From: a virus
IMG/VR virus record: IMGVR_UViG_3300027816_000167
Span: 1-44,715 of that record
Length of the DNA stretch: 44,715 nt
Direction: 5' to 3' (one strand)
Notes under the pieces: generated by a model
What the model was told of the DNA's origin: nothing
The model's input: the letters and a program-made list of their open reading frames with translations, nothing else
Databases searched by the model: none
Position numbers and translations under genes: made by a program
Shown: positions 1,274 through 7,712 of the stretch, piece by piece
Layout of the letters: each line of letters begins with the position of its first letter
Numbering within the stretch: the first letter of the stretch is position 1

Positions 1274-1341
1274 GGTGTCACTTTCTCCGGTGACGCCAGA
1301 AAGAGCCCCGTCAGCGCCTTGCCTCGCTGATGGGGTTTTTT
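1274..1341 (+). ncRNA. Putative 68-nt small RNA with an anti-Shine-Dalgarno loop
   Basis: Between the forward promoter and the T-tract the RNA folds into two hairpins. Hairpin 1 is an 8-bp stem (1274-1281 with 1290-1297, one G-U pair) displaying the 8-nt loop TTTCTCCG (1282-1289). Hairpin 2 is the terminator. The loop is the exact complement of CGGAGAAA, the extended ribosome-binding sequence in the repeated leaders at 42.07, 43.69 and 44.17 kb. Complementarity to those leaders extends to 12 bases (1282-1293). The arrangement suggests a trans-acting antisense RNA that blocks translation by loop-SD pairing, or one titrated by those leaders. The architecture is seen directly; expression and targeting are inference. 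Confidence 0.55.
1306..1341 (+). terminator. Rho-independent terminator, plus strand
   Basis: CCCCGTCAGCG (1306-1316) pairs with CGCTGATGGGG (1325-1335), an 11-bp stem with one G-T pair and an 8-base loop, followed by TTTTTT (1336-1341). It serves the putative small RNA. The HNH-like gene ends at its distal edge from the other side; on the minus strand only CTCTTTCT follows, so it may act weakly in both directions. Confidence 0.85.
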
Positions 1342-1756
1342 ATTTGGTGTTCCCGATCCAGGAGTTTACTTCTTCCTGGCAGATGCGTCTTGGTGCGTTA
1401 GGGTTCACCAGACTGTTAAACTCTGTTAGGTCGTAGTCGTGTGGCCTGCTGGCCATCAAGGCCGCAAGCTGTCTCGCTTGCGGCCAGTTACCTTTGTGAA
1501 TGACCACCGAACTATTGCACTGCCAGCATGTCACCAGTACGGCGAATGGCTTGTCGAGTGCCTTGGCTCGGTCGGGTCCATTGGCGATTTCGTGGACGCA
1601 AAGCCTGCTGAGTTGTGGCATGGCTCGATTGCGTGGCCTGCTTGGGCTTGCCCCGCAAATCTCACACTTGCCTACCTGCTCAATCAGGTTCTTCCGCAAA
1701 GAGGCCACCGCCTCCATCAGAAGTTTCCTTTTGTTGCTTATCCGCTTCATCGCCAT
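1340..1756 (-). CDS. HNH-like zinc protein (138 aa)
   Basis: The protein has a basic N-terminus, then CEIC (C31, C34), CVHEI (C53, H55) and CWQC (C77, C80), followed by a WPQARQLAALM helix. This matches the zinc-stabilised beta-beta-alpha HNH arrangement (two CxxC knuckles around an H-E strand). The residue after the second CxxC, usually the final catalytic His of an HNH, is Asn here (CWQCN), so cleavage activity is uncertain. It overlaps the zinc-ribbon frame at 1680-1889 by 77 bases. The start is ATG 1756 (MAMKRIS), with ATG 1750 as an alternative; the Shine-Dalgarno is weak. HNH genes near terminases aid packaging; here the neighbours are recombination genes. Confidence 0.6.
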   Translation of the reverse strand: MAMKRISNKRKLLMEAVASLRKNLIEQVGKCEICGASPSRPRNRAMPQLSRLCVHEIANGPDRAKALDKPFAVLVTCWQCNSSVVIHKGNWPQARQLAALMASRPHDYDLTEFNSLVNPNAPRRICQEEVNSWIGNTK

Positions 1757-1889
1757 AGCGTCTTGTTGTCCTCTGTCCTATGTACTTGCCGCACTTGCCG
1801 CAGTGGACGCGAATGCTTCCATCTGGCTTGGGCGTGTCCTTGTAGTTGGCCGGATTGTTACAGCACCACTCGGAGCGCGGCTGACTCAG
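1680..1889 (-). CDS. Zinc-ribbon protein without canonical start; probable -1 frameshift extension of the SSB
   Basis: The frame encodes WCCNNP near its start and VHCGKCGKYIG about 20 residues later, a four-Cys zinc ribbon, then a polar tail ending LFAEEPD. It has no ATG, GTG or TTG: the only in-frame initiator-like codon is CTG at 1889, overlapping the SSB stop (CTGA) with a 15-base gap to the nearest GAGGA. Immediately before the SSB stop lies C CCT TTC, a textbook -1 slippery heptamer, with GAGGA 9 bases upstream as in dnaX. The coordinates give the independent frame of 69 codons from CTG; as a frameshift product it would add the same residues to the SSB. That it is coding is likely; how it is translated is inference. 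Confidence 0.6.
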   Translation of the reverse strand: MSQPRSEWCCNNPANYKDTPKPDGSIRVHCGKCGKYIGQRTTRRYGDEADKQQKETSDGGGGLFAEEPD

Positions 1890-2170
1890 AAAGGGAGTTC
1901 GGAATCCTCATTGAGACTTGGATTGCCGTTCGTCGAAGTACCGTCGCCAAAAGATCCTCGCGGTGAATCGCTGCTTTGGTTCTTCGGTTGAATGGAAAGC
2001 GACATGAACTTTTGCCCTGCCTTCTCCCCCTGCTTGATTTCCTTCGTCCATGCAGACAGCCAGTAATCAACTCCGTTGACGTTGATCGATCCTTTGAAGT
2101 CAGGATGATTTTCGCTTTGCTTGCGATCGTTCTTGAAAAGACTTCCGCGATTCGTATTGTCCCAACTCAT
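1886..2170 (-). CDS. Small single-strand DNA-binding (SSB-like) protein
   Basis: Starting at ATG 2170 (GGAGGA 5 bases upstream, ATGA overlap with rusA), this 94-residue protein has a compact beta-rich domain (DFKGSINVNGVDYWLSAWTK ~ residues 24-43) typical of small phage OB-like proteins. A disordered Ser/Gly/Asn linker follows, with the C-terminus EDSELPF. That acidic tip ending in Pro-Phe is the classic SSB interaction tail (compare DDIPF) recruiting partner proteins. Its place among resolvase, helicase and RecA-like genes fits a replication/recombination role. The last codons hold the slippery sequence C CCT TTC before TGA, so some ribosomes may shift and bury the tip under a zinc-ribbon extension. 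Confidence 0.65.
   Translation of the reverse strand: MSWDNTNRGSLFKNDRKQSENHPDFKGSINVNGVDYWLSAWTKEIKQGEKAGQKFMSLSIQPKNQSSDSPRGSFGDGTSTNGNPSLNEDSELPF
1897..1903 (-). other. Putative -1 programmed frameshift site (C CCT TTC)
   Basis: Immediately upstream of the SSB stop codon the minus strand reads CTC CCT TTC TGA. The heptamer C CCT TTC fits X XXY YYZ: the Pro and Phe tRNAs can re-pair on CCC and TTT in the -1 frame. GAGGA lies 9 bases upstream, the position of the stimulatory internal Shine-Dalgarno in bacterial dnaX. The next zero-frame codon is a stop, which favours pausing. The heptamer abuts the TGA, so its position may be 1889-1895 by strict count; treat the coordinates as approximate within 8 bases. 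No clear downstream pseudoknot was found by eye. Confidence 0.5.
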
Positions 2171-2547
2171 AGCTTCCTCCGAATTAAGATTTCGACCCTT
2201 GGGTTCTTGGAGTCTACTTCCCATTGTACCGGGTGGTAGTGGAACCCAGAGTCATTTTCAATGACGCCAGCTTTCTCGAATCCGTCCCATGCGCGTTTCA
2301 TCGCATTCATAAAGTTGTCTCGGTCGATAGTCCTCCTGCTTCTCTTGAACGCCGTAATGTAAACATCTGCCTCTTGCCATCTTGGGGCATCAACCCCAAG
2401 CCTGTTCAGTTCTGACAGTGCGACCAGTGCCGCCTCTGATTTCTGGACACTAGCCAGTTTTGATTTCTTTGACCAATGCCCAGGCCGATTCGGAAATAGC
2501 ATTGGATCGGGAAAGGAAACCACCAGCCGTATTTCGTTGATCGTCAC
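2167..2547 (-). CDS. rusA: RusA-type Holliday junction resolvase
   Basis: This 126-residue protein has the RusA pattern: FPDPMLFPNRPGHW near the N-terminus, then RRTIDRDNFMNAMKRAWDGF (D75, D77) and GVIENDS (D99), corresponding to the three catalytic aspartates that bind Mg2+. RusA dimers resolve four-way junctions and are common in phage recombination modules, where they trim branched DNA before packaging. The start is GTG 2547, overlapping the upstream stop as GTGA, with GGAA upstream. The stop overlaps the SSB start (ATGA), so the three genes are translationally coupled. Confidence 0.85.
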   Translation of the reverse strand: MTINEIRLVVSFPDPMLFPNRPGHWSKKSKLASVQKSEAALVALSELNRLGVDAPRWQEADVYITAFKRSRRTIDRDNFMNAMKRAWDGFEKAGVIENDSGFHYHPVQWEVDSKNPRVEILIRRKL

Positions 2548-2936
2548 TTGATTGCTTCCAACTGCTCTAATGCTTCACGCAACTGCTTCTTGAGTAGGTC
2601 AAGGTTGCCAATGCTCTGTGCGAAGTTGAGTTGCTCGCAGACGGATCGTACTGCAAGAATCTTGTTGCTGGCAAGTATCGCGCTGCACGCCGCCTGGACT
2701 GGTCCCTTGCCGTTCTCGACGGTCGCTCGCCGGTCTGCTAGCCATGCCTCAAGGGCGCCGTACTTCCCTTCGCGAAGCTGCCTGACAATTGGTTCGACTT
2801 CAGCCATAAACGATCCAGAGGGCATTAGCCCCTGTGCCTTCTTCCCGGCGTCTCCGTTCCCGGCAATGACTCCGAGCAGGAAGACGCTCAAGTCTCGTTC
2901 GTGCTCTTTGCTAAGAGGCTCTTTGTTTGCTGCCAT
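2544..2936 (-). CDS. Helical protein of unknown function in the replication operon
   Basis: This 130-residue, mostly alpha-helical protein is soluble and has no metal motif. Residues ~15-60 (SVFLLGVIAGNGDAGKK, then PSGSFMAEVEPIVRQLREGK) faintly recall the N-terminal domain of DnaB-type helicases, which binds primase or loader, so it might be a helicase-associated domain; this is weak. It overlaps the 3' end of the helicase gene by 26 bases and the rusA start by 4, which places it functionally with them. The start is ATG 2936 with a poor Shine-Dalgarno, presumably depending on coupling. Confidence 0.6.
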   Translation of the reverse strand: MAANKEPLSKEHERDLSVFLLGVIAGNGDAGKKAQGLMPSGSFMAEVEPIVRQLREGKYGALEAWLADRRATVENGKGPVQAACSAILASNKILAVRSVCEQLNFAQSIGNLDLLKKQLREALEQLEAIK

Positions 2937-4482
2937 ACAGTTCGTGCATCCCCAAGTCTGAAAGTTTTAGCCTCCAGTCGATCGTTCTCATTGGCATGAG
3001 CGGAAGGTTTCTCGGTGGCTTGTAACCGTACTTCCGAAAGAACCATCCTTCAAGCTGAAGGAATGATTTTTCTGGATGGTACTTCTTCCAACCAAAGTAG
3101 AGTTTTCTCCAAAGCAGTTCCGTGTTGGAATGCTTTACTCTTGGCTGGCGTTTCACCAAGTCTCCTTCTTTCGTAACGAATCGACCGTCCTCCATCATCA
3201 CCCGGCGAACACTCTTTGGGTGCTCGTATCCACACGAAGGGCACTTCGGCCCTTTGTTGCGTTCGGTAAAACAGTTCGGGCAAACGATCCCCTCTTGCCG
3301 TTCACCTTCACGGATCTTGTCTCGGTGCATGTTCGATGCCGCTCGCTCGGTCATTTTCCATAGTTCTTCCCAGGGCTTGTCCTCGTTCGGACTTCCGTGG
3401 TTGTGCCGGTATCCACCATGATCGGTAACTAGGCAGTGGTCTTTGGCAGGGTTCTTCGGGTCGGCTCTCATGCCTCGCCCGATCGTCTGGATAGCAGATG
3501 CAAGGCTCCCGATTGGGGTAGCGAGAATCAGGTGGTAGGTGCATGGAAAGTCGATTCCCTCCCTGAGTTTAAATCGGCAGGACAGCCCCTTGATGTCACC
3601 AGCAACATACTGCTCGCTGATTTCGTCCCAGGCTTTTCGAGACAGCCGGTATGTCTTGCCGTCTAGGTAGGCGTCGGTCGCGTCGATATGACACCAGCGA
3701 ACGCCGGTCTTCTCAAACTGCTGCGTCAGCCAGATGCTTTCCGGTTTGCCCGGCGCGTACAGCATGGCGTGTCGTGCGTCCGGGTTGAACTTCTTCCAGT
3801 AGTCAACAACATCGCCAACGATATGCTGCGTGAACTGCTTACGCTCTTTGCCGTTCAGCATGTACTCGCCGGTCACGTTCCGCTTGATCTTGTGGAGGTC
3901 TGGAATACTGATCGTTTTGACTAGGGCAGGCACAAGAGCACCGCAGTCGCGGTACTGCTTCATCGTGCCGGAAACAATCAGTTCGTCAGCCCAGTCGCTC
4001 ATGGCGATCGGTGTGGCTGTTAGCAGCACAATCGCCGCCTTGGCCTTCTTGTATTCGTCGAGGATCTTCTTCATCACCTTCGTCTTCTGGAGGTGAGCTT
4101 CGTCAACGATCACGACACCGGCGTCAAATAGACTCCACTGGTTCTTCTCGAATACCCTGGCCGCTTCTGTGTCTGCACTGCTGATCTGGACCTTCGCATA
4201 CGCATCGAAGTAGTCTGGGTAGTCTGCTGCCCGGATTCCGTGTTGAATGCCGAGCGCATTGAACCTTGCTGAAGTTTGACCTATCAGCAAACGCCTGTTG
4301 ACGTAAAAGTTGGCACCGACCCCTTTGTGTTGAGCCCATCGAATAAGCTCAATCGCCATCCGTGTCTTTCCGCAACCAGTCGGACCTTGGAGTACCACCG
4401 ACTTCCCTCGCTCAAGGAGCGGGATCGTCCTAGATATTCCATCGTGTTGCGGAGTCCAGAGGTCGGTGCCAAGCTGAAACAT
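2911..4482 (-). CDS. SF2 DNA helicase (DEAH type) with C-terminal zinc finger
   Basis: The roughly 523-residue protein carries the full superfamily 2 set: Walker A GPTGCGKT (33-40), motif II VDEAH (126-130), motif III LLTATP (~153-158) and the motif VI arginine finger QTIGRGMRAD. A four-Cys finger (CPNC...CPSC) follows. It resembles the RecG/UvsW/RadD group of phage helicases that remodel forks and D-loops. The upstream frame reaches GTG 4488 overlapping the previous stop, but ATG 4482 is better spaced from AAAGG (9 bases), so I chose that. It lies between the ParB-like and rusA genes; acting together in recombination-dependent replication is a reasonable inference. Confidence 0.85.
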   Translation of the reverse strand: MFQLGTDLWTPQHDGISRTIPLLERGKSVVLQGPTGCGKTRMAIELIRWAQHKGVGANFYVNRRLLIGQTSARFNALGIQHGIRAADYPDYFDAYAKVQISSADTEAARVFEKNQWSLFDAGVVIVDEAHLQKTKVMKKILDEYKKAKAAIVLLTATPIAMSDWADELIVSGTMKQYRDCGALVPALVKTISIPDLHKIKRNVTGEYMLNGKERKQFTQHIVGDVVDYWKKFNPDARHAMLYAPGKPESIWLTQQFEKTGVRWCHIDATDAYLDGKTYRLSRKAWDEISEQYVAGDIKGLSCRFKLREGIDFPCTYHLILATPIGSLASAIQTIGRGMRADPKNPAKDHCLVTDHGGYRHNHGSPNEDKPWEELWKMTERAASNMHRDKIREGERQEGIVCPNCFTERNKGPKCPSCGYEHPKSVRRVMMEDGRFVTKEGDLVKRQPRVKHSNTELLWRKLYFGWKKYHPEKSFLQLEGWFFRKYGYKPPRNLPLMPMRTIDWRLKLSDLGMHELYGSKQRAS

Positions 4483-4484
4483 CG

Positions 4485-5255
4485 TCACTTGCCTTTCAGA
4501 TCATTCAGCCAATCGTAAATCTTCGTGATGTTAAACCGAAGTATCTTGAAGTCTTCCAGCCTTCCAAGATCGCTCGCAATGTCTCGCAGTTGCTTTTGTA
4601 GGGAGGCAAGTGTGTCCATAGCATCCTGAACCGCTTTCGGGCTGGATGTCGGGGTTTTGCCTACCTGCTCGATTTCTTCCTTGAGAGCCTTCTTGCGTTC
4701 CTGCTTGTCTTCGACCGACGCAATCTCTTGCTGTCGCTCCCTGGGAATCTCAGCGATTTTGGAAACTGCCGATGCTGGCAATTCCTTGGCAACCTCTTTG
4801 ATTTCCTCCGGGCTTTTCTCGATTACATCGGCAACCGCAAGATCCCTAAAGACTTGGCGTTTGCTTCTCTGGGTAGCTTCGGCAACTGCTGCGACGGCTT
4901 GAACCTTGTTCGTGCCTTCGCTCGCATCCTGCATACGTCGCTGGACCATCTTCTGCGTAGCAAGAGCCCGTTGTGCAGGCGTCATGTTCCGCCGCATGAA
5001 CTGCCATTTCTCCATGAAGGCCATAGCCTCTGACAGCGTGTCAAAGATCATGTCTTCCGTTTTGAAGGGCAGTCCATGCTTCTTGCAATAGTGATAGCGA
5101 CGGTGGCCGTCGATGATATATCCCTGGCCACTCCAGACGATGATGGGATCGCGAGCCCCGCCACTAGCTTTGATGTCCTCCTCAAGTGATCGGTCGTCGT
5201 CCTCGTCGCAATCAGGAAGAAACGCCGCTAGTTCAGGATGGATTTTCAGTTCCAT
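4485..5255 (-). CDS. ParB/Srx-fold DNA-binding protein
   Basis: The N-terminal ~100 residues form a ParB/sulfiredoxin-like domain with the diagnostic IIDGHRRYHYCKKHG (47-61), preceded by an IKASGGARDPIIVW strand-helix, as in ParB/Noc/KorB nucleotide-binding domains. A helical region follows, including a helix-turn-helix-like VAEATQRSKRQVFRDLAVAD segment, and then a charged coiled coil to residue 256. Phage copies often act as transcription or partition regulators, or as replication accessories. ATG 5255 is preceded by GGGGAG at 4 bases and is preferred over ATG 5267, which has no ribosome site. The gene overlaps the SbcC-like gene by 23 bases and the helicase start by a few. Confidence 0.75.
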   Translation of the reverse strand: MELKIHPELAAFLPDCDEDDDRSLEEDIKASGGARDPIIVWSGQGYIIDGHRRYHYCKKHGLPFKTEDMIFDTLSEAMAFMEKWQFMRRNMTPAQRALATQKMVQRRMQDASEGTNKVQAVAAVAEATQRSKRQVFRDLAVADVIEKSPEEIKEVAKELPASAVSKIAEIPRERQQEIASVEDKQERKKALKEEIEQVGKTPTSSPKAVQDAMDTLASLQKQLRDIASDLGRLEDFKILRFNITKIYDWLNDLKGK

Positions 5256-6564
5256 AGGACTCCCCATTTCTGATGACCACTGAGCAAAGTTGCTCGTCTT
5301 CGTTTGTCCTGGTTACGACTTCCATCAGCATTTGGAAATCGTTGACCTTTAGCATTTCGTCGAGGGCTTCCAGCGTATCGGTGTCCATTGCCGAACCGTC
5401 TTCACAGACAAGCAGCCTGAGAGTTGGGTTAAGCGCGATCCCGATGCTAGTCGAGATTTTTACCCGATCCGCCTTGTTGATCTGGCTAAACGGAAGCCCG
5501 TTGTAGAGAACGCCATCATCGGAAAGAGACAGTCCAGGTACAGGCCATTTGGCCTGCTGAATCATCTGGACCTTGCTTTCCTCGATTTCCTTCAGGCGAG
5601 CCGTCTTGGCCTCGCTTTGCTTGCGAAGGTCTGCCAGTTCCGCCTGCTTTGCTGCTCTGTCCTTGTTGGCCTGGACTTTCTTGTTGACTTCGGATGCCAT
5701 CGCCATCTGTTGCTGAATGACTTCCAGGTCTTCAACGATTGGCTTTGGCCGCTTCTCAAGTGCCGCTAGGTGATCTTCAGCACTTTGGACAACCGCTACC
5801 AATTCGTCGTGCTTCCTCTGAAGCTCGGCAATCTTGGCGGTAATTGCCTTGATGTCCTCCTCGGCTCGTTGAATCTGGAATCGATGGGCCTTCGACTCCT
5901 GATCCATCAGCATGATTTCTCGCTGGGCGTCGTTCGCGGCCTTCATCCGTTTCGACAAATCGCCAACGTCTACCGCCTCGGCAGGTGCGTCGTCGTACTT
6001 CGGCATGGCGTCAAAGACTGCTTTCGCGGCAACGCCCTGCTTGTTGATAACGGTGCGCTCGGCGTACTCCTCTTTGAACTCCTTGTCTAGTTCAGTGAAG
6101 TCCAACCCAACTAGATCGACCAGTAGCTTTCGCTGGTCCTGGGGTTTCATCCTCTCGAACTCCAGCGGGTCGAACGCTTTCATCGAGTACAGCGACCGCA
6201 ACAAATCCCTGGGGCTACCGGCAGGATCGCCAGTCGAATCTAGCAGTTCAAACTCCTCGGATACGCCACCTCCGACTTTGCGCTTGAAGTGGAACCGAAC
6301 AGTGAACCCTACTTCATCGTGAAGGGATCGCTCGCCCGACAGCTTAACGTCGATGAATCCCTTGTCCTCTCCTTCGCGAAGGGGAACCTCGGGGAAGTCC
6401 TTCATGCCCGATCGACCGCATAGGGCAATCAGCAAAGCCTTGAGAGCCGAAGTCTTGCCCTGGCCGTTCTTGCCTCCAATCAGGTACAAGTTGTGTCCAC
6501 GCAAATCAAACTTCACTTCCTTCACACCCATCACGTTATGGGCGTGCAATTCCAATACTTTCAT
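5233..6564 (-). CDS. SbcC/RecF-like AAA ATPase with coiled coil
   Basis: This 443-residue P-loop protein opens with a RecF/SbcC-type N-terminal lobe: strand KVLELHAHNVMGVKEVKF, then Walker A GGKNGQGKTS (30-39). The central ~180 residues (from about 200) are a long heptad coiled coil, and the C-terminal lobe ends with LRLLVCEDGSAMD, a Walker B-like segment. It lacks a canonical LSGGE signature (SQINKADRVKI sits there), a common degeneration in short phage members. Roles include DNA-end processing with a nuclease partner and recombination. The start is ATG 6564 behind GAGGAG (5 bases); GTG 6570 falls inside that Shine-Dalgarno and is rejected. It overlaps the ParB-like gene. Confidence 0.8.
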   Translation of the reverse strand: MKVLELHAHNVMGVKEVKFDLRGHNLYLIGGKNGQGKTSALKALLIALCGRSGMKDFPEVPLREGEDKGFIDVKLSGERSLHDEVGFTVRFHFKRKVGGGVSEEFELLDSTGDPAGSPRDLLRSLYSMKAFDPLEFERMKPQDQRKLLVDLVGLDFTELDKEFKEEYAERTVINKQGVAAKAVFDAMPKYDDAPAEAVDVGDLSKRMKAANDAQREIMLMDQESKAHRFQIQRAEEDIKAITAKIAELQRKHDELVAVVQSAEDHLAALEKRPKPIVEDLEVIQQQMAMASEVNKKVQANKDRAAKQAELADLRKQSEAKTARLKEIEESKVQMIQQAKWPVPGLSLSDDGVLYNGLPFSQINKADRVKISTSIGIALNPTLRLLVCEDGSAMDTDTLEALDEMLKVNDFQMLMEVVTRTNEDEQLCSVVIRNGESYGTENPS

Positions 6565-6599
6565 CGTCACTCCTCAGAGAAAAAAGAAACTTCAGAACC

Positions 6600-7712
6600 C
6601 TACCAAGGGATCTGGTCGCCAGAAGGTGTCGCGGCAGCTTCGCCGTCGAGCTTTTCAGTTACATCGGAATCGGTAAGCGGCTTCCATCCAAACTTGGCAC
6701 AGATTTTCTCGTACCCAGTTTTGATGTCGTCGATCCCTAGCTTTTCTACCAGAGTCCAGGAGCGAGTCTGGAAGACTTCTTCAAGCAGTTCAAACTTACC
6801 CTGCTTGTCTGCGGCAGACTGGCTTGGATACGCCTTGAGCATTGCCTGCTTTAGTTCTTCCAGTGCAATCTTCCTGATGTTGTGAAGTCGGGTTCGCTCG
6901 CCTTCGTCAACGAACAGGTGTTCCGATCCTTCTTTCGGATCGAAGGCCGACATATCGCCGCCAAGGTTCAGCGTGCTGATATGCGGCAGGAAAGACTTGA
7001 ATGTCGGGTTCTCGATGATCGCCCCGTCCATCTGGTTCGATCGATCCTTGAGTACAGTCGCCGTCCGAATGACTCGCAGCATCTTCCCGTTCTCGTCCAT
7101 TTCCTGCTCACGCTGCATCAGCACAAGCAAGCTGGGCTCGTATCCGGTTTCCGTTTCGCCCTTCATTTTGACGCCAGACTTTTCAATCTGCTTCTTGCCG
7201 TCTTCGTCTTCGTAGTGGGAGTATTCGTATCCCTGACGACCAAGCATCAGGATATGACTGGGGTGCGTTAGATACCGCTCGGTGAACGGTGCCCACTCTT
7301 GCTTGATCTTTCCCCAGTCGTCAAACGTAATACGCCTCCTGGCCCACTCTGGCTTCTTCGCCATGTATGCCTTGATAAGCTCCTGCCAGAAGTGCGTAAT
7401 CGAGTCGATGATTAGGATGCCGTTGACTCGCGCAACCTGATCCATGTCTTCGAGGAGGGTCGCAAATGCTCGCGTCTGGTCCACCTGAAGCTCGATGCCG
7501 TTTCGCTTCATGGTTTCCGCCAGCCAGTTCGATCCGGTTTCCGAATCGACCATGTAGACCTTCCCATGCCCTCCGGGAAGCCCTCGCTCCTTCAGTAGAT
7601 TGTGGAGCCCGACCGCGATGTCTGCTGCGGTGAAGGTTTTCCCGGACCCCTGAAGTCCGAGAAATCCAGACTTGAGATAAGACTGATTGAACTCTAGTTT
7701 TTTGAATGCCAC
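6600..7712 (-). CDS. RecA-fold ATPase (Sak4/AAA_24 type), putative recombinase
   Basis: This 370-residue protein has a RecA core: Walker A GLQGSGKT (19-26) and Walker B GILIIDSITHF (98-108), followed by a short lid. Such phage proteins (Sak4, AAA_24) bind single-stranded DNA and promote annealing or strand exchange with their cognate SSB. A C-terminal ~100-residue helical extension ends in DQIPW, reminiscent of SSB-type acidic tips. GTG 7712 is the start, with a good AAGGAG site 7 bases upstream. It is the first gene after the promoter at 7746-7774 and heads the replication/recombination operon that ends near 1340. Confidence 0.8.
   Translation of the reverse strand: MAFKKLEFNQSYLKSGFLGLQGSGKTFTAADIAVGLHNLLKERGLPGGHGKVYMVDSETGSNWLAETMKRNGIELQVDQTRAFATLLEDMDQVARVNGILIIDSITHFWQELIKAYMAKKPEWARRRITFDDWGKIKQEWAPFTERYLTHPSHILMLGRQGYEYSHYEDEDGKKQIEKSGVKMKGETETGYEPSLLVLMQREQEMDENGKMLRVIRTATVLKDRSNQMDGAIIENPTFKSFLPHISTLNLGGDMSAFDPKEGSEHLFVDEGERTRLHNIRKIALEELKQAMLKAYPSQSAADKQGKFELLEEVFQTRSWTLVEKLGIDDIKTGYEKICAKFGWKPLTDSDVTEKLDGEAAATPSGDQIPW

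Follow-up and report, generated by a model that had tools for sequence, protein, structure and literature searches.

The locus raises the question of how a zinc-ribbon reading frame that has no ordinary start codon, and that lies in the -1 frame directly behind an SSB-type gene, could be expressed. In our best reading, the SSB-type gene probably ends in a cassette for -1 programmed ribosomal frameshifting. The window (the whole stretch of DNA that was analysed) corresponds to a viral record 44,715 bases long, and matches to terminase, portal and head proteins identify it as a tailed phage. Most genes of the window are on the minus strand, and the SSB-type gene and the startless zinc ribbon sit in a block of DNA recombination and replication genes (Table 1). 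The phage seems distant from described groups. Between 8085 and 28000 there are very large proteins (1330, 777 and 884 aa, for example) with no PHROG match at 1e-5.

Table 1. Features of the SSB-type locus and its gene neighbourhood in the window.
Feature	Position	Strand	Remarks
138-aa Cys-pair protein, gene after zinc ribbon	1340..1756	-	same neighbour in L085, L082 and L184
-1 ORF, 69-aa zinc-ribbon extension, no ATG/GTG/TTG	1680..1889	-	conserved with L085
Predicted branched 94-nt RNA structure, starts 7 nt after heptamer	1788..1881	-	-36.4 kcal/mol
0-frame TGA stop of SSB-type gene	1886..1888	-	
CTG over stop (CTGA), first -1 codon, possible weak non-AUG start	1887..1889	-	CTGAGT kept in L085
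Slippery heptamer C_CCT_TTC, in phase X_XXY_YYZ, abuts stop	1889..1895	-	identical in L085
GAGGA, SD-like stimulator candidate, 9 nt before heptamer	1905..1909	-	inside published 6-17 nt interval
Putative SSB-type gene, 94 aa, C-terminal tip EDSELPF	1886..2170	-	phrog_18154 3e-17, phrog_7364 1e-14
RusA-like resolvase	2167..2547	-	overlaps SSB start; phrog_34 6e-14
130-aa protein	2544-2936		
DEAD/ResIII helicase	2911..4488	-	79% identical in L085
ParB-like protein	4485-5267		
SbcC-like protein	5233-6570		
AAA_24 ATPase	6600..7712	-	AAA_24 2e-7, phrog_1366 4e-48; 67% identical homologue on L085 contig

The SSB-type gene has a strong SD of its own (GGAGGA at 2175-2180). Its product matches proteins in 60 phage records, and the relatives used here comprise about 150 from IMG/VR and seven from GTDB genomes. 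Both PHROG families matched by the protein are annotated as ssDNA-binding, and its putative identity as an SSB rests on this annotation together with the conserved tip. The C-terminal EDSELPF had been recognised in the first-pass annotation as an SSB tip. The protein ends in PF in 79 of the 127 distinct relatives, and the PF tip is almost invariant across a set of 41. The predicted model of the protein has four strands. A Foldseek search of this model against the PDB gave no significant match, including none to an OB fold, and DUF736 is matched weakly by 8 of the 41 relatives. Given these results, the annotation of this phage family (phrog_18154/7364) as SSB is perhaps questionable.

The 3' end of the gene reads GAG GAT TCC GAA CTC CCT TTC TGA. 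The first-pass annotation had singled out this ending, with a slippery CCCTTTC directly before the stop, a GAGGA 9 bases upstream of it, and a -1 frame open for 69 codons that encodes four cysteines and contains no ATG, GTG or TTG. All of these elements are present as described, and the heptamer is in phase with the SSB frame. The description of the -1 frame as startless holds for the three usual start codons, but it left unmentioned that the first -1 codon is a CTG lying over the stop as CTGA. Upstream, the -1 frame is shut by a TGA at 1910-1908, which leaves two places of entry: the 19-nt stretch that precedes the SSB stop, and the CTG. CCCTTTC is the sole phased heptamer within this 19-nt box, and C_CC.U_UU.C is among the motifs that give high-level frameshifting in E. 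coli (PMC4066793). The GAGG of the window has a spacing of 11 nt by the published way of counting. The predicted RNA structure satisfies the published rules, but is modest, with a z-score of -1.77 that was equalled by 13 of 200 shuffles; its energy per nt is the 13th among the junctions that pass.

The -1 frame closes at the TGA at 1682-1680 and overlaps the following Cys-pair gene by about 77 nt. Its cysteines are C9 and C10, which form an adjacent CC pair, and C30 and C33, which form a CxxC. The predicted model of the zinc ribbon has three strands and is of moderate confidence. A Pfam zinc-ribbon entry was matched with an E value of 0.044, below the cut-off of that entry, and a Foldseek search of the model against the PDB gave no significant match.

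Only one close relative was found, the contig L085 from another metagenome, which belongs to the same record as L086, L090, L170 and L183. It is syntenic with the window, and its SSB-type protein is about 60% identical (for the helicase, see Table 1). The SSB-type gene of L085 ends GAC CTC CCT TTC TGA GT, and a zinc ribbon comes next in the -1 frame, again with no ATG, GTG or TTG nearby; the nearest GTG lies 172 nt upstream, inside the SSB-type gene. The two genomes share 14 identical nucleotides at the junction, CTCCCTTTCTGAGT. Upstream of its heptamer L085 has AGGAGG, a stronger SD-like site than that of the window, and a hairpin of 10 bp with a loop of 8 (-15.2 kcal/mol) begins 7 nt after the heptamer. 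The same layout in this independent contig, with many synonymous differences, led us to reject a sequencing error, which the first-pass annotation had named as a possible undoing of its proposal. When the overlap with the next gene is excluded, 19 of 44 aligned ribbon residues are identical, among them CC, DTP and HCxKCGKxIG, and 10 of these 19 are encoded by different codons in the window and in L085. Identity at the protein level despite differing codons suggests that the ribbon ORF is probably translated. We dropped a conserved C-terminal LF motif that had been considered for the extension, as its codons overlap the next gene and there is no alignment for it.

The heptamer by itself is weak evidence, because it arises by chance from the coding of -PF. 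CCCTTTC or CCCTTTT is also found in the -PF tips of L044, L153 and L166, which carry no -1 zinc ribbon, and we therefore rejected the heptamer alone as sufficient evidence. Given the codon identity of the helicase genes, the chance of finding identical CTC, CCT and TTC codons in the window and L085 is roughly 7%. We scored 125 SSB-tail junctions by the published E. coli rules of Sharma et al. 2014 (PMC4066793), which place an SD-like site 6-17 nt before the motif and the start of a 3' structure 4-10 nt after it. The heptamer is present in five junctions, an SD-like site in 12 and a structure in 64. All three signals are combined in two of the 125, the window and L085, and these are exactly the two junctions with a startless -1 ribbon. 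When 127 junctions were ranked by pairing to the anti-SD, L085 came first and the window second. The L085 hairpin is at the top of the junction set by energy per nt; in a 49-nt context it has a z-score of -2.95, and one of 200 shuffles was as good. A simple hairpin of this strength at 4-10 nt occurs at about 0.8% of positions across the 9.5-kb locus of L085, and 17-20% of coding positions have an SD-like match. Because the window and L085 are homologous and descend from a common ancestor, their elements do not count as independent draws.

Among the SSB relatives examined, the -1 zinc ribbon was found only in L085. Two distant relatives, L082 and L184, share the Cys-pair gene with the window, and what precedes it there runs contrary to frameshifting. 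In L184 a longer, different ribbon in the -1 frame, 20% identical to that of the window, starts at an ordinary ATG in a TGATG overlap, and there is no heptamer. In L082 the ribbon is in the +1 frame after CCC TTT TAG T, and the only usual starts available to it are two ATGs, one located about 68 nt before the SSB stop codon and the other past the first Cys pair. The first-pass annotation had asked whether relatives conserve the heptamer; L085 does, but L082 and L184 do not. The combination that it regarded as fatal to its proposal, a normal start without a heptamer, does exist, but in a relative as distant as L184.

These relatives have features of their own. The CCC TTT TAG T of L082 (L082:3860-4077) resembles a prfB-type YTT_TRA shift site, with the first Cys one codon beyond the stop, and L082 may reach the same SSB-ribbon fusion via a +1 shift at TTT_TAG. 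The arrangement in L184 (L184:2384-2808) is a possible ancestral coupled form. In L042, L045, L047, L048 and L072, the next gene starts at a TGATG over the SSB stop, in the -1 frame, and by eye looks exonuclease-like (VIDTETTGL motif). Searches with the zinc ribbon and the helicase in IMG/VR, INPHARED phages and GTDB genomes yielded no useful new members, and a helicase profile scan returned L085 and L082 as the only clear relatives.

Frameshifting is the best reading because the set of three signals and the startless -1 ribbon occur together only in the window and L085, and because C_CCU_UUC is a strong motif in E. coli. It accounts for the missing start, the heptamer, the positions of the SD-like sites and the L085 hairpin. 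The shift proposed in the first-pass annotation thus gains from the heptamer, the startless ORF and the stimulators all being kept in L085, but initiation at CTGA offers a possible way around it. In that case the zinc ribbon would be a separate protein made from the CTG at 1889-1887 by termination-reinitiation, and the heptamer would be incidental to the coding of Leu-Pro-Phe. The retention of CTGAGT in L085, which would give an N-terminal Met-Ser, agrees with such a start, as does the TGATG overlap at which many relatives, including L184 with its ribbon, start the following gene, likewise in the -1 frame. L044, L153 and L166, which have the heptamer but no -1 zinc ribbon, point the same way. 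CTG is a poor initiator, however, and whereas many genes of the window have an SD at the spacing for initiation, this one lacks it (0.1 kcal/mol). In both genomes the SD-like sites lie 9-12 nt upstream of the heptamer and 16-18 nt from the CTG, which is the distance for frameshifting. A CTG start also leaves unexplained the hairpin at 7 nt in L085 and the co-occurrence of the three signals, and we consider it rather unlikely.

Both routes might operate side by side, as in IS911, yielding the fusion as well as a free zinc ribbon. The heptamer, the SD and the CTG are all conserved, and PMC4066793 and PMC5009743 cite IS911 as a precedent, but the spacing between SD and CTG exceeds that of normal initiation, and this combination seems improbable to us. 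We give very little credence to the view that the -1 ORF is untranslated, or that the ribbon is a remnant that has lost its start. Neither genome has an ordinary start and close relatives are few, as such a view would have it, but the ribbon is conserved as a protein, with many synonymous changes between the window and L085.

If frameshifting operates at this junction, most ribosomes would stop at the TGA and release an SSB-type protein of 94 aa whose ELPF tip is free. A fraction would pause, with the upstream GAGG (AGGAGG in L085) paired to 16S rRNA and a structure beginning 7 nt downstream, and the tRNAs for Pro and Phe, sitting on C_CCT_TTC, would re-pair with CCC TTT. Reading would resume with CTG AGT and run on through the zinc ribbon to give a fusion of 163 aa, in which ELPF is followed by LSQPRSEW and then by the ribbon. 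The expected tryptic peptides are GSFGDGTSTNGNPSLNEDSELPFLSQPR for the junction of the fusion and GSFGDGTSTNGNPSLNEDSELPF for the unshifted end.

SSB tips act as free C-termini, and serve as a hub that recruits DNA-processing enzymes. The PF tip would be internal in the fusion, where tip-binding pockets should not accept it, and the gene would then yield two SSB forms. Work on phage HK620 makes a masking of the tip plausible: there, Sak4 no longer bound to ssDNA coated with SSB once the NDYPPF tip had been deleted, and SSB without its tail behaved as a barrier (PMC5928155). How strongly SSB-coated DNA recruits partners, such as a Sak4-like annealase, would depend on the mixture of subunits with a free and with a masked tip. 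Given the need for the tip in HK620 and the presence of an AAA_24 ATPase in both the window and the L085 contig, which we infer to be Sak4-like, the tip-masked fraction could tune annealase loading. We suggest tentatively that in this phage lineage a -1 shift at the last sense codons of the SSB-type gene produces a fixed fraction with a buried tip, and thereby tunes the recruitment of the annealase or other tip partners. A literature search found no case of an SSB tip being switched off by recoding, and neither this exact heptamer nor a frameshifted phage SSB had a precedent in the papers searched. If the suggestion is true, a ratio mechanism like that of dnaX would govern the recruitment of SSB partners.

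One of the closest parallels is dnaX of E. coli (tau/gamma), where, as proposed here, ribosomes slip by -1 at a phased heptamer flanked by an upstream SD and a downstream hairpin, and one replication protein is given two C-termini. It differs from the window in the protein and the heptamer, and its shifted product is the shorter one, whereas here the shifted product would be longer and the unshifted one stops directly after the heptamer. IS911 and the IS3 family share with the window a second frame without a normal start, an SD and a 3' structure as actual or candidate stimulators, and possible non-AUG initiation; the window gene is not a transposase, and its heptamer is C_CCU_UUC. In IS911, AUU initiation and -1 frameshifting use the same stimulatory signals, whereas the CTG of the window has no properly spaced SD. 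The phage tail chaperones G/GT are extended at the C-terminus by frameshifting in a phage gene, as proposed here; the gene in the window belongs to DNA metabolism and to another family, and its extension would be a zinc ribbon. Translational coupling of neighbouring phage genes at TGATG/ATGA resembles the window in that the first codon of the downstream gene, read in the -1 frame, overlaps the stop, but it uses ATG where the window has CTG. The SSB/Sak4 pair of HK620 is not reported to have a frameshift extension, and its SSB, at 21.3 kDa, is about twice the size of the window protein (PMC5928155); it combines a phage SSB with a -PF tip and a Sak4-type ATPase encoded in the same genome, as the window probably does.
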